Shown here: positions 1,743 through 4,526 of the stretch, one piece after another
Layout: the number at the start of each line of letters is the position of its first letter
Numbering within the stretch: the stretch's first letter is position 1
Source: Nitrospirota bacterium
GTDB lineage: Bacteria > Nitrospirota > Thermodesulfovibrionia > UBA6902
DNA length: 64,000 nt
Direction: 5' to 3'
Assembly: GCA_016234115.1 (NCBI GenBank)
Contig: JACRHD010000024.1
Span: forward strand, 1-64,000
Position numbers and translations under genes: made by a program
The notes under the pieces: model-generated
Seen by the model: the letters and a program-made list of their open reading frames with translations, nothing else
Told to the model about the DNA's origin: nothing
Database searches by the model: none

Positions 1743-2036
1743 TTATGCAGCCTTGACATGGAATTTGAGGCCCAGCGCCCGGACTACCTTCATCACCGTT
1801 GCAAACTCCGGATTGCCTTCAGGCGAAAGGGCCTTGTACAAGCTCTCGCGTCCGAGCCCTGTCTTACGGGCTATCAAGGCCATACCCTTGGCGCGGGCAA
1901 TGTCTCCGATTGCCGCTGCTATCAAGGCGGGATCTCCCTCCTCGATAGCAGCCTCAAGATAAGCGGCCATATCTTCTTCGGTCTTTAAATGCTCCGCTGC
2001 ATCCCAGGGGATAGTTTTAATTTTTCTGCGTGCCAT
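1743..2036 (-). CDS. HigA-like antitoxin (addiction module antidote family)
   Basis: 97 residues matching the 'probable addiction module antidote protein' type: an N-terminal toxin-binding stretch, then a Cro/C1-like helix-turn-helix at about residues 45-90 with the typical pattern IARKTGLGRESLYKAL. It would bind and neutralise the RelE-fold toxin encoded just upstream and repress the operon. Only 9 bases separate it from the toxin stop, and the order toxin then antitoxin is that of HigBA-type modules. Ends with the usual conserved LGLKFHVKAA-like tail. No full cognate operator was identified. Confidence 0.88.
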   Translation of the reverse strand: MARRKIKTIPWDAAEHLKTEEDMAAYLEAAIEEGDPALIAAAIGDIARAKGMALIARKTGLGRESLYKALSPEGNPEFATVMKVVRALGLKFHVKAA

Positions 2037-2045
2037 TTTAGCCTC

Positions 2046-2336
2046 CTAAATACTCTGCGCCAATTGCAGCGCGGTTTTGATGTCTTTATCCTGCGTGCGC
2101 TTGTCTCCGCCCGCCAACAGGATTACCAGTTCTTTGCCCCTCTGCTTATAATAAATTCTGTAGCCGGGACCGTAGGCGATCCGCAGTTCCGAGACGCCTT
2201 CACCTACAGGCTTAACATCGCCCGGATTGCCCAGCGACAAACGACGGATACGCGCATCGATACGTGCACGAGCTTGTCGGTCACGAAGGCGGCTAAACCA
2301 TTCAGCATATATATCGGTCTGACGAATCTCTATCAT
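2046..2336 (-). CDS. HigB/RelE-like toxin (addiction module killer family)
   Basis: 96 residues of the RelE/ParE superfamily, 'putative addiction module killer protein' subtype. Typical features are the basic helix with RLRDRQARARIDARI near the N-terminus, the VKPVGEGVSELRI strand region and the GPGYRIYY motif that forms the core sheet. Family members cleave ribosome-bound mRNA. It is the first gene of a toxin-antitoxin operon, with the antitoxin directly downstream. Length and motifs look intact. Confidence 0.88.
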   Translation of the reverse strand: MIEIRQTDIYAEWFSRLRDRQARARIDARIRRLSLGNPGDVKPVGEGVSELRIAYGPGYRIYYKQRGKELVILLAGGDKRTQDKDIKTALQLAQSI

Positions 2337-2445: not shown

Positions 2446-2466
2446 TGGTACATTTAAAATGTACCA
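2446..2466. repeat. 21-bp perfect palindrome
   Basis: Arms TGGTACATTT and AAATGTACCA around a single central A. It lies 20 bases before the first unit of the tandem structured repeats and 110 bases upstream of the toxin gene. It could be an operator of the toxin-antitoxin operon, the boundary of the repeat array or a recombination site; the sequence does not decide. Confidence 0.4.
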
Positions 2467-2485
2467 TCAGGAGCCCGCCTGTAAA

Positions 2486-2892
2486 GCTCTGGCCCGTGCG
2501 CCAAGCACCGCCCTCCTGATCTTTATCGGGGCTGGTGTATGCAAGTGGGGCCGACTGGATCAGGGTTGGCTGAGGGTCTGCGCCCCTCCCAGGGCATTTT
2601 CCGTTATGTAGCCTGATGGCATATAAGTATATGCTCTGGCCCGAGCGCCAAGCACCGTCTTCCTGAGCGTTATTGGGGCTGGTGTCGGCAAGTGGGGCTG
2701 GCTGAGGCGGGGGGGGGGTAGCTCCCCTCCCAGAGCATTTCCCGTTATGTAGCCTAATGGCATTATATGCTCTGGCCCGTGCGCCTATCATCGCTCACCT
2801 GAGTATTTGCATCATCTGGGGCGATGCTGGCAAGTGGGGTCAACTGCTCAGGGCTGACTGAGGTGGGTTTGCTCCCCTCCCAGAGTATTTTC
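2486..2892 (-). repeat. Three tandem ~140-bp structured repeats (candidate ncRNA array)
   Basis: Three imperfect copies begin at 2486, 2633 and 2769 (periods 147 and 136). Read on the minus strand each begins near TGCTCTGGGAGGGG, has conserved inner blocks CCCCACTTGC and ACCAGCCCC, and ends GGCGCxCGGGCCAGAGC. In the middle copy the ends ATGCTCTGG and CCAGAGCAT are perfect reverse complements; the outer copies have one mismatch each, so every unit can close as a terminal stem. The third copy overlaps the last ~15 codons of the neighbouring small ORF. Conserved short blocks between divergent loops suggest a structured RNA or DNA element rather than coding sequence. Standalone RNA families such as HEARO/omega-RNA are one possibility; I could not confirm any. 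Confidence 0.6.
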
Positions 2893-3114
2893 CTTCCCCT
2901 TCTCATTCCACAGCATTTTAAGCAATTCCTGAGCATGTTCTAATTTGCGCTTTGTCTCAAATAACACCCATTCATATTGAGTTTTTTCCGCTGCTTCCTC
3001 CAGAGCTAATATCATCTCTACCACATTCAAACTGAAACTTAAATCGATATCAAGCCCATCAAATATGTCTATTTGCGACACAGGTAAGTTTGATTGTATT
3101 AATTTTAAAGCCAT
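2848..3114 (-). CDS. Small acidic hypothetical protein, C-terminus encoded by repeat unit
   Basis: About 88 residues from the ATG at 3114, which is preceded by a purine-rich site (GGAAAGG); a TTG 21 bases further upstream lies inside a palindrome and is less likely. Acidic and helical, family unknown. The last ~15 residues (from about GKENTLGG) are encoded by the third copy of the tandem repeat, so the natural C-terminus may have been replaced when the array was inserted. It follows the serine recombinase on the same strand with a 24-bp palindrome between them, so it may belong to the same element. Confidence 0.5.
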   Translation of the reverse strand: MALKLIQSNLPVSQIDIFDGLDIDLSFSLNVVEMILALEEAAEKTQYEWVLFETKRKLEHAQELLKMLWNEKGKENTLGGEQTHLSQP

Positions 3115-3130
3115 ATCCTTTTTCCTTTCC

Positions 3131-3154
3131 GTCAATCACCGGTCGGTGATTGAC
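3131..3154. repeat. 24-bp palindrome between recombinase and small ORF
   Basis: Arms GTCAATCACC and GGTGATTGAC around the centre GGTC, located 11 bases after the recombinase stop codon. The symmetry and position suit either a hairpin ending the recombinase transcript (no T-run follows) or a crossover or binding site for the serine recombinase. Neither can be chosen from sequence alone. Confidence 0.45.
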
Positions 3155-3165
3155 ACTTTGAATGT

Positions 3166-3840
3166 TTATGCGGCCTTCTTTAAAATGTTTTTTATTGTCT
3201 GAGGATGCCAGTACCGCCCTTGCGGCATATGTCCTTGGCTCTCTAATTCAGCGCATATTGAACGAAAAGAGTATCCCTTATTATTGAGCCCCTGTATTAA
3301 GCGTATCGCGTCCTGTTCTTTTTTATGAGCTACAAGAGTATATCCATCAGGTGACAGTCTCCATCCGAAGGGTATCTGTCCGGCCCTTTCATTGTTTGCT
3401 ATCTTCATCTGGAGTGCATCTTTCGTCCTCTCTGAAATCAGATCGCGTTCCATTTGCGCCAGGGATGCCGTAATATTCAGAAAGAATCTTCCCATTGCCG
3501 TTCCGGTATCAATTTTCTCATTAAGGCTGTGAAACGTGATCCCTGACCTTTCAATAGATTCTATCAGGGTAAGAGTATCAATGACCTTCCGGGAAAGCCT
3601 ATCGAGCTTATACACAATAATGGCCTGTATTCCTTTACTCTTCACCCAGGATAGAAGGCCCTGAATACCATCTCGGTTGAGACTCTTTCCGCTCTTCCCT
3701 GCATCCTCGATGATCTCCACAAGGTCCAGGTCTTGAATTTCGCAATACGCCCTGATTTTTGCTTTTTGATTATCGAGCGATATTCCTTCCGTGGCTTGCT
3801 CTATGGTAGAAACTCTGACATAACCTATTGCCTTTTTCAT
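3166..3840 (-). CDS. Serine recombinase (resolvase/invertase family)
   Basis: About 224 residues from the ATG at 3840, preceded by AAAGGGGAA. An in-frame ATG at 4089 would give 307 residues, but that extension is antisense to the ribbon-helix-helix gene and is rejected. The resolvase catalytic domain spans about residues 1-145: GYVRVST with the nucleophilic Ser, YKLDRLSR, and the E-helix segment MERDLISERTK. A short C-terminal helix-turn-helix-like DNA-binding part follows (residues 180-224). It catalyses site-specific DNA exchange through a 5'-phosphoserine link. It is divergent from a small RHH protein and shows a good sigma-70 promoter with a palindrome over its start region. Confidence 0.9.
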   Translation of the reverse strand: MKKAIGYVRVSTIEQATEGISLDNQKAKIRAYCEIQDLDLVEIIEDAGKSGKSLNRDGIQGLLSWVKSKGIQAIIVYKLDRLSRKVIDTLTLIESIERSGITFHSLNEKIDTGTAMGRFFLNITASLAQMERDLISERTKDALQMKIANNERAGQIPFGWRLSPDGYTLVAHKKEQDAIRLIQGLNNKGYSFRSICAELESQGHMPQGRYWHPQTIKNILKKAA

Positions 3841-3940: not shown

Positions 3941-4123
3941 ATGAAAGCTGAACATCTAAAGAAAATTTTGACCGGAAAATCTAAGACGATTAGTCTTCGG
4001 ATTAATCCGGATCTTCTGAGGCTCCTGGACGAGGCACTTGCAAGAGACAAGGAATTCAACAACAGAAACGAACTTATTGAAGTGCTCATCTTGCGTTATC
4101 TTGAGTCAAGGGGAAAGTTATAA
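3941..4123 (+). CDS. Ribbon-helix-helix (CopG/Arc-like) DNA-binding protein
   Basis: 60 residues with the pattern of an RHH domain: a short strand KTISLRINP, helix LLRLLDEALAR and helix NRNELIEVLILRYLES. Such proteins bind DNA as dimers through the paired strands. It is divergent from the serine recombinase and may control it through the palindrome over the recombinase promoter. No Shine-Dalgarno precedes the ATG, and a TATACT box ends only 11 bases upstream, so the mRNA may be leaderless. The antisense extension of the recombinase frame over this gene is an artefact. Confidence 0.75.
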   Translation: MKAEHLKKILTGKSKTISLRINPDLLRLLDEALARDKEFNNRNELIEVLILRYLESRGKL

Positions 4124-4437
4124 TATATCGAGGCTGCGAAACGTCTCGGACGTTTGAGCGGGGGACTTCTCCCGTCGAGAAGATGCATCCGGCGTCGCTG
4201 CCTCTATTCAACATGAAGCAGGCAAAGAAAAAGAAAAGAAATATCTACCCGAAATTCCGGGAAGTTCTAATTTGGAAGCCTACATGGAAAAAAAGAAAAG
4301 GCAAGTATCCGGAACTCGTAGATGGGATTTATCAATCGTAACTGTTATCTCCGCAGTAAATTCACCAAGTTATCTTAAATAAAAGTCCCATAAAAGCGAT
4401 TTTACAGTAGAGTCTATTTATAACTTCATGAAAAAAA
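4124..4437 (+). other. Gene-poor stretch with possible ORF remnants
   Basis: No convincing gene. One frame is open from 4158 to about 4380 without a good start, and a 42-codon lysine-rich ORF begins at 4213 in another frame without a ribosome site. Both look like remnants of a small gene downstream of the RHH gene. The stretch ends at the tRNA-Pro gene, a common site for integration of mobile DNA. Confidence 0.3.
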
Positions 4438-4447
4438 AGGGGAAAAA

Positions 4448-4526
4448 TGGTCGGGGCGAGCCGATTCGAACGGCCGACCTCTCGCACCCCAAGCGAGTGC
4501 GCTAAACCAGGCTGCGCTACGCCCCG
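4448..4526 (-). tRNA. tRNA-Pro (GGG)
   Basis: On the minus strand the acceptor stem CGGGGCG pairs with CGCCCCG, followed by ACCA, so CCA is encoded. The anticodon stem CTCGC/GCGAG encloses a loop with GGG. The T-arm has GTTCGAATC. It marks the border between the accessory patch to the left and housekeeping genes to the right. Confidence 0.95.

Follow-up and report, generated by a model that had tools for sequence, protein, structure and literature searches.

Structured RNAs linked to predicted nuclease domains of phage polyvalent proteins, and orphan arrays of such RNAs, in Nitrospirota

The RNA locus and its surroundings

The analysed DNA (hereafter, the window) comprises the 64,000 nucleotides at positions 1 to 64,000 of contig JACRHD010000024.1, from a Nitrospirota bacterium (assembly GCA_016234115.1; genome G000). 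Three direct-repeat units were found at positions 2475-2895, with spacings of 147 and 136-142 nt, 73-91% likeness within blocks and complementary ends (GCTCTGG/CCAGAGC), and no further unit was detected elsewhere in this 3.5-Mb genome. A first-pass annotation of the same DNA had described three structured repeats with complementary ends and conserved blocks, adjoined by a recombinase gene and a small ORF, and this description proved to be accurate. Comparison with homologues indicates that each repeat is a copy of a folded, hitherto undescribed RNA of ~130 nt, named here RNA1, encoded on the plus strand and not, as the annotation implied, on the minus strand.

The three orphan copies, all of which belong to the training set of the covariance model R1 (see below), are located at 2475-2604 (copy 1, plus strand, 109.1 bits), 2622-2745 (copy 2, plus strand, 103.7 bits) and 2758-2895 (copy 3, plus strand, 132.3 bits). 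Copy 3 is the most complete and shares 84% DNA identity with a consensus drawn from the window and its relatives. Copy 1 retains the pseudoknot of the family through a compensatory change (CCTGATC/GATCAGG), while the alignment places in copy 2 a run of 10 G and a deletion of the helix-3 (P3) loop, with which the pseudoknot partner is gone. Since no recognisable promoter precedes the array and the pseudoknot is missing from copy 2, expression of these units in this genome is uncertain and the array may be decaying. Upstream of it lies a perfect 21-nt palindrome (2446-2466), possibly an operator; a second, 24-nt palindrome (3131-3154), which the annotation had listed beside the first, is present with one of its 12 pairs mismatched.

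This second palindrome separates the small ORF (2848-3135, minus strand, 95 aa), taken from the ORF list and without a family match in the Pfam scan, from a gene for a small serine recombinase (3166-3840, minus strand, 224 aa; Resolvase 1.6e-43, Recombinase 6.2e-5). The small ORF extends at its 3' end into the strand opposite RNA1 copy 3, just as the nuclease domains do at other loci; no relatives of this ORF were found in the genome-collection scan. Divergent from the recombinase is a gene for a ribbon-helix-helix (RHH) protein (3941-4123, plus strand; PF01402, 2.4e-5). Its stop is overlapped by a promoter-like sequence, TTATCT-17-TATAAT (4096-4124, plus strand), which lies directly upstream of a fourth structured RNA, overlooked previously and of a different family, RNA2 (4125-4211, plus strand). 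This orphan copy was the sole match in G000 of the RNA2 model R3 (35.5 bits, whole-genome E 8.4e-5), which was built without the window and, like other such models, gives rough E-values; its promoter-like sequence occupies the same position as the promoters of its relatives. A tRNA-Pro gene (4448-4526, minus strand) lies at the border of what is probably a mobile remnant. The window recombinase is 63% identical to one encoded near RNA1 on contig L063 and therefore probably belongs to a plasmid or phage-plasmid remnant, rather than being a partner of the repeats. DNA and protein searches of plasmid and phage records returned no match.

Next to the array, a pair of HI1420-type antidote and Gp49/RelE-type toxin genes (1743-2336, minus strand; Pfam 2.6e-32 and 2.8e-7) is accompanied by TTGACA-17-TACACT at 2375-2347. 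Between the contig start and this pair (1-1687) there are three ORFs without Pfam matches, all on the minus strand (70-519, 520-777 and 980-1687), which may form the remainder of a genomic island situated at tRNA-Pro.

Distribution and structure of RNA1

The first homologues, recovered by DNA searches of the class, were mostly from one family, which includes Candidatus Magnetominusculus. Covariance model R1, built from 12 copies including the three of the window, gave 24 matches, among them the 12 copies used for training, in 13 of 230 genomes from the class, and three more divergent members (L103, L104 and L114) came from fetched regions. In total, about 26 copies were identified with the covariance model, in Nitrospirota genomes of the same class. 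No match outside the class was obtained in a phylum-wide sample of 396 genomes searched with R1, a model that misses distant forms. Not every copy is independent, since some loci represent the same place in related genomes. L021 and G156:C116 denote one and the same contig. Candidates L022-L024 from pattern scans were rejected as chance matches, their similarity not extending into the element, and L004 and L005 as short DNA matches due to chance.

Isolated units fold no clearly better than shuffled sequences (z from -0.6 to -0.9 on the plus strand and from -0.2 to -1.7 on the minus strand). Since single-sequence folding cannot separate the units from shuffles, the evidence for structure is the comparison of homologues. 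The deduced fold consists of a closing helix (P1), three hairpins (P2, P3 and P4) and a pseudoknot that joins the P2 and P3 loops. In an alignment of 26 copies fitted to the model (a structure-blind alignment of 12 copies agrees in direction), 87.4% of cells were paired versus 74.4% in shuffles, double changes affected 29 pairs versus 19.1 and 142 cells versus 48.7, and the covariation score reached 0.464 versus 0.232; none of 500 shuffles reached any of these four values. According to the tool's own warning, related sequences can exceed shuffles; controls in which the partners were slid by 1-3 columns preserve relatedness, and in these pairing fell to 38-48%. The pseudoknot, although outside the model, still covaries (CCTGAGC/GCTCAGG, CCAGAGC/GCTCTGG and CCTGATC/GATCAGG) and is 97.1% paired. 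The four-helix fold with its loop-loop pseudoknot is thus supported by covariation.

Compensatory substitutions across further copies had been named in the annotation as one test of its proposal that each unit may be a structured RNA, and the proposal holds on that test. Its statement that variation lies mainly between the conserved blocks, as for loops, does not hold: many of the helix changes are compensatory. The Rfam search that it called for was run on the units without a match, and neither they nor their relatives have a counterpart there at the gathering threshold or at relaxed thresholds (E up to 5).

Promoter and mobility of RNA1

A promoter of the type TTGACA-17 nt-TAnAnT is present directly upstream of all RNA1 copies, except those of the window, L017, L062 and L063; in L016 the second hexamer is CACAAT, and L114 has a weaker version (TTGATT-18-TACACT). 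The distance is nearly constant and places the presumed transcription start close to the 5' strand of P1, so RNA1 looks like a small-RNA gene. Across 0.79 Mb of strand sequence, the strict form of this promoter was counted 47 times; 25 of these sites lie within 75 nt of the start of an RNA1 or RNA2, and several of the remaining ones precede further candidate RNAs of this kind.

In genome G071, a 187-bp block composed of the promoter and RNA1 is found with 98.9% identity behind two nuclease domains, BECR-x (L052) and PBECR3 (L051). The mobile unit is the promoter together with the RNA. Filled and empty sites that were read showed no clean target duplication.

The BECR-x domain, usual partner of RNA1

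At most loci, RNA1 lies on the strand opposite the C-terminal tail of a ~120-aa domain, designated BECR-x, and at the paired loci the reading frame stays open through the RNA1 element. BECR-x occurs within large phage proteins (L019, L052, L055, L058, L060 and L061) and also as short genes beside chromosomal cobO, queE, miaA and folP (named from sequence, miaA additionally via Pfam); relatives with empty sites were found for cobO and queE. Only two of 11 members matched the Pfam family PBECR3, and weakly (best E 2.1e-4). A His residue, placed in a helix, is present at position 44 in 12 of 13 members and Thr/Ser at position 112 in all 13; these correspond to the His and Thr/Ser signature of PBECR domains (PMC5512222). 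The structural model (pLDDT 95) is an alpha/beta, nuclease-like fold, whose best match among solved folds is a contact-dependent-inhibition (CDI) toxin (7m5f_C, prob 1.00, E 3.4e-3, TM 0.42), and the structure search also revealed a resemblance to phage polyvalent proteins. BECR-x is accordingly predicted to be a BECR-fold ribonuclease domain of these giant phage proteins.

BECR-x was found in eight of the 396 genomes of the phylum-wide sample; seven of them contain R1 matches and the eighth, G154, the weak L114 copy. Two BECR-x genes (L115 and L119) have no RNA behind them, and in these the homology breaks off inside the domain or right behind it, seemingly as a result of insertions. Identity at codon positions 1/2/3 equals 0.60/0.58/0.49 in the tail versus 0.61/0.68/0.36 in the domain, a pattern by which the tail is constrained at the nucleotide level. 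The RNA1 partner in L051 is PBECR3 (3e-25).

Several arrangements of BECR-x were also observed. In L018 (G150:C18, 9245-9939), a BECR-x gene has a promoter-RNA1 unit on either side, the two in direct repeat, and is fused in frame upstream of miaA (IPPT 6e-82). L064 (G159:C245, 4183-4428) contains RNA1 and BECR-x, and L016 (G095:C74, 11001-11627), at the same chromosomal site, RNA1 alone; this site is empty in G158 and G156. A BECR-x relative is encoded on the viral contig L107 (IMGVR_UViG_3300013126_000051, about 3350-3700). Its antisense tail, read by eye, contains a promoter-like TTGACT-17-TATCTT and complementary ends; it gave no R1 match and is perhaps a distant form.

RNA2 and its association with PBECR3

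RNA2 is a second undescribed family of structured RNAs, distinct from RNA1, and is found elsewhere with PBECR3. Twelve PBECR3 loci above the Pfam cut-off were identified in the class; in nine of them a strict antisense promoter lies behind the domain and, in eight of these nine, is followed by an RNA2-like sequence. The ninth is L051, where RNA1 and then RNA2 are placed behind PBECR3. Matches of the RNA2 model were strong in L123, L124 and L139 and weak (E 0.002-0.2) in L122, L125, L129, L130 and L141; RNA2 was also placed at PBECR3 by model matches in L126 and L128. Covariation of the RNA2 fold exceeded all shuffles for a hand structure and seven copies picked as alignable, a choice that favours that structure. 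This hand structure replaced an RNAalifold prediction over all copies, whose fold came out weak owing to misalignment of the divergent members. Neither BECR-x nor PBECR3 was found in G000. Two tandem orphan RNA2 copies are present in another family of the class (L151; G080:C11, 14790-14991).

Further candidate RNAs and mixed orphan arrays

Within the L052 polyprotein, antisense promoters were also detected behind PBECR2 (RNA5), LPD3 (RNA4) and one further unnamed domain (RNA3). RNA3, RNA4 and RNA5 are candidate families which differ in sequence and each have paired ends. The antisense promoters that lead into these candidate structured sequences, each within a phage polyvalent protein or next to one, are found in L052 (4937-5070, 6128-6300 and 7571-7720), L062 (2412-2822) and L017 (14256-14564 and 5711-5852). 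Several of them recur as orphans, in tandem with each other or with the first two families: RNA3-RNA5(partial)-RNA4 and RNA2-RNA1-RNA4(partial) in L062, RNA3-RNA1-RNA4 in L017 and RNA2-RNA1 in L063. These three are plasmid- or phage-like contigs; L017 also encodes a serine recombinase and Rep_3 initiators. The locus of the window, with its three RNA1 copies, small ORF, recombinase, RHH gene and RNA2, is similar to them. The link to a recombinase, which the annotation had stressed, is real in the window and is otherwise shared only with plasmid/phage-like contigs: a resolvase-family gene accompanies RNA1 only there, in L063 and, farther off, in L017, and none was noted among the ORFs read at other RNA1 loci.

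Comparison with known systems

Type III toxin-antitoxin systems (ToxIN, CptIN and TenpIN) resemble the loci described here in that a pseudoknotted RNA is linked to an endoribonuclease gene and occurs in tandem arrays; the RNA antitoxin forms a pseudoknot, and that of RNA1 covaries. They also have phage-borne orphan repeats (pseudo-ToxI; PMC3475682). In type III systems the toxin processes the RNA, by which it is bound and inhibited. In contrast, RNA1 and RNA2 are antisense and convergent to the nuclease, whereas type III repeats lie upstream on the same strand; RNA1 has ~130 nt and its own promoter for each copy, whereas type III units have ~36 nt; and the partners are BECR-type, with a different RNA family for each domain. 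No ToxN-, CptN- or TenpN-family match was listed for the partners, which match PBECR3 or resemble PBECR and CDI toxins.

A convergent antisense RNA is known from the type I toxin-antitoxin system bsrG/SR4. As in type I systems, an RNA gene with its own promoter runs opposite the partner gene and overlaps its 3' end, which does not apply to the window copies and other orphans. A type I toxin is a small hydrophobic peptide, whereas the partner here is a folded nuclease-like domain, often within a giant protein; moreover, the RNA fold is conserved and orphans exist without a partner. The features that define type III (toxin family and layout) and type I (peptide toxin) were looked for and are absent.

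Polymorphic toxins with their immunity genes offer a protein analogue, including swapped domains and orphan immunity arrays (PMC5512222, PMC3482391), and the partner domains belong to or resemble the PBECR families of phage polyvalent proteins (PMC5512222). The linked factor here, however, is an RNA, antisense within the effector's own reading frame; antisense RNA linked to PBECR effectors is not mentioned in PMC5512222, and no report of such RNAs was found in the open-access subset of PubMed Central. The loci resemble HEARO/omega-RNA systems (IscB, TnpB) in that mobile DNA carries a nuclease gene together with a structured RNA, and IS607-type elements contain serine recombinases, but the orientation here is antisense and no guide-like variable end was noted. 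Pfam revealed no IscB or TnpB around the window array, and none was seen among the ORFs read by eye at other loci. Together with the Rfam result, this leaves the annotation's suggestion of a HEARO/omega-RNA-like guide relic unsupported.

Possible function of the RNAs

The reading that we tentatively prefer, and hold to be quite possible though short of probable, is that the RNAs are domain-specific antidotes and the orphan arrays a form of immunity. Each RNA would bind and block its nuclease, as ToxI does ToxN, and/or silence the nuclease mRNA, and in this way a lysogen, or a cell producing phage, could survive its own effector. As the RNA gene and the domain lie in one reading frame, they might move jointly between polyproteins. 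Orphan arrays, including that of the window, would act in trans to give immunity to nucleases that other phages or plasmids bring in. The more general picture, in which polyvalent proteins carry a domain-specific neutralising RNA opposite each effector-domain tail, and plasmids, phages and hosts bank these RNAs in mixed orphan arrays, is also possible but more doubtful.

Trans-acting antidotes fit best because there is one RNA family per domain, promoters are strong, constraint acts at the RNA level, the unit moves, and orphans and mixed arrays exist. Action in trans is supported by G000, which holds RNA1 and RNA2 yet neither nuclease, and by the mixed orphan arrays. An experimental precedent for a phage-borne antidote RNA is phage PhiTE, whose pseudo-ToxI repeats block ToxN (PMC3475682). 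Several observations count against the antidote model: association alone would fit cis-antisense control too; antisense promoters are also found behind LPD3, which is not known to be a toxin; the window array lacks a recognisable promoter and, in copy 2, the pseudoknot; RNA1 in L051 is beside PBECR3, together with RNA2; and BECR-x matches PBECR3 weakly in sequence and its best solved fold at TM 0.42. If proven, the model may define a new toxin-antitoxin type, with an antidote RNA gene buried antisense in the effector frame and both moving as one in-frame cassette. It would explain how phages with PBECR-type effectors keep from poisoning the cell that produces them, and mixed orphan arrays would be stockpiled RNA immunity, playing at the RNA level the part that immunity genes play for polymorphic toxins. 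Whether or not this mechanism holds, families of structured RNA that Rfam lacks, each going with a known effector domain, offer pairs that can be tested directly.

Strong promoters and an antisense position over the 3' end of the effector gene would also suit type I-like cis-antisense regulators, acting by duplex formation or transcriptional interference on the effector mRNA and timing its expression, with orphans as leftovers or as agents that base-pair with distant alleles. We regard this as unlikely: a duplex needs no conserved four-helix fold with a pseudoknot, orphans keep their fold in a genome without the nucleases, and differing RNA families stand behind differing domains. That last regularity, a single RNA family per domain, is in turn what would be expected if the effector domain used, cleaved or were activated by the RNA, as a cofactor, guide, substrate or decoy, for instance one mimicking a host target. 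The partner is a predicted ribonuclease, and the compact fold (a closing stem and three hairpins) is loosely tRNA-like; nevertheless, orphan arrays without the protein, the separate promoter on the opposite strand and the lack of any noted variable guide-like end make such a role slightly less likely still.

Beyond these RNA-based readings, the complementary ends, the movement of the unit and the recombinase that adjoins RNA1 in the window and L063 (farther off in L017) could point to a mobile DNA element or an array of serine-recombinase recombination sites, folding as DNA. A recombination target array was the other proposal of the first-pass annotation, and we consider it improbable, since most copies have no noted recombinase yet possess a sigma-70-type promoter; besides the conservation of these promoters, the pseudoknot changes are compensatory and the filled and empty sites lack a clean target duplication. 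Finally, the open frame through the element at paired loci would be compatible with there being no RNA at all, the element being a conserved protein linker behind the nuclease domain and the pairing a by-product of coding. This has very little likelihood given the codon-position pattern, the pairwise covariation and the antisense promoters, and the copies in the window and on plasmids lie outside any such gene.
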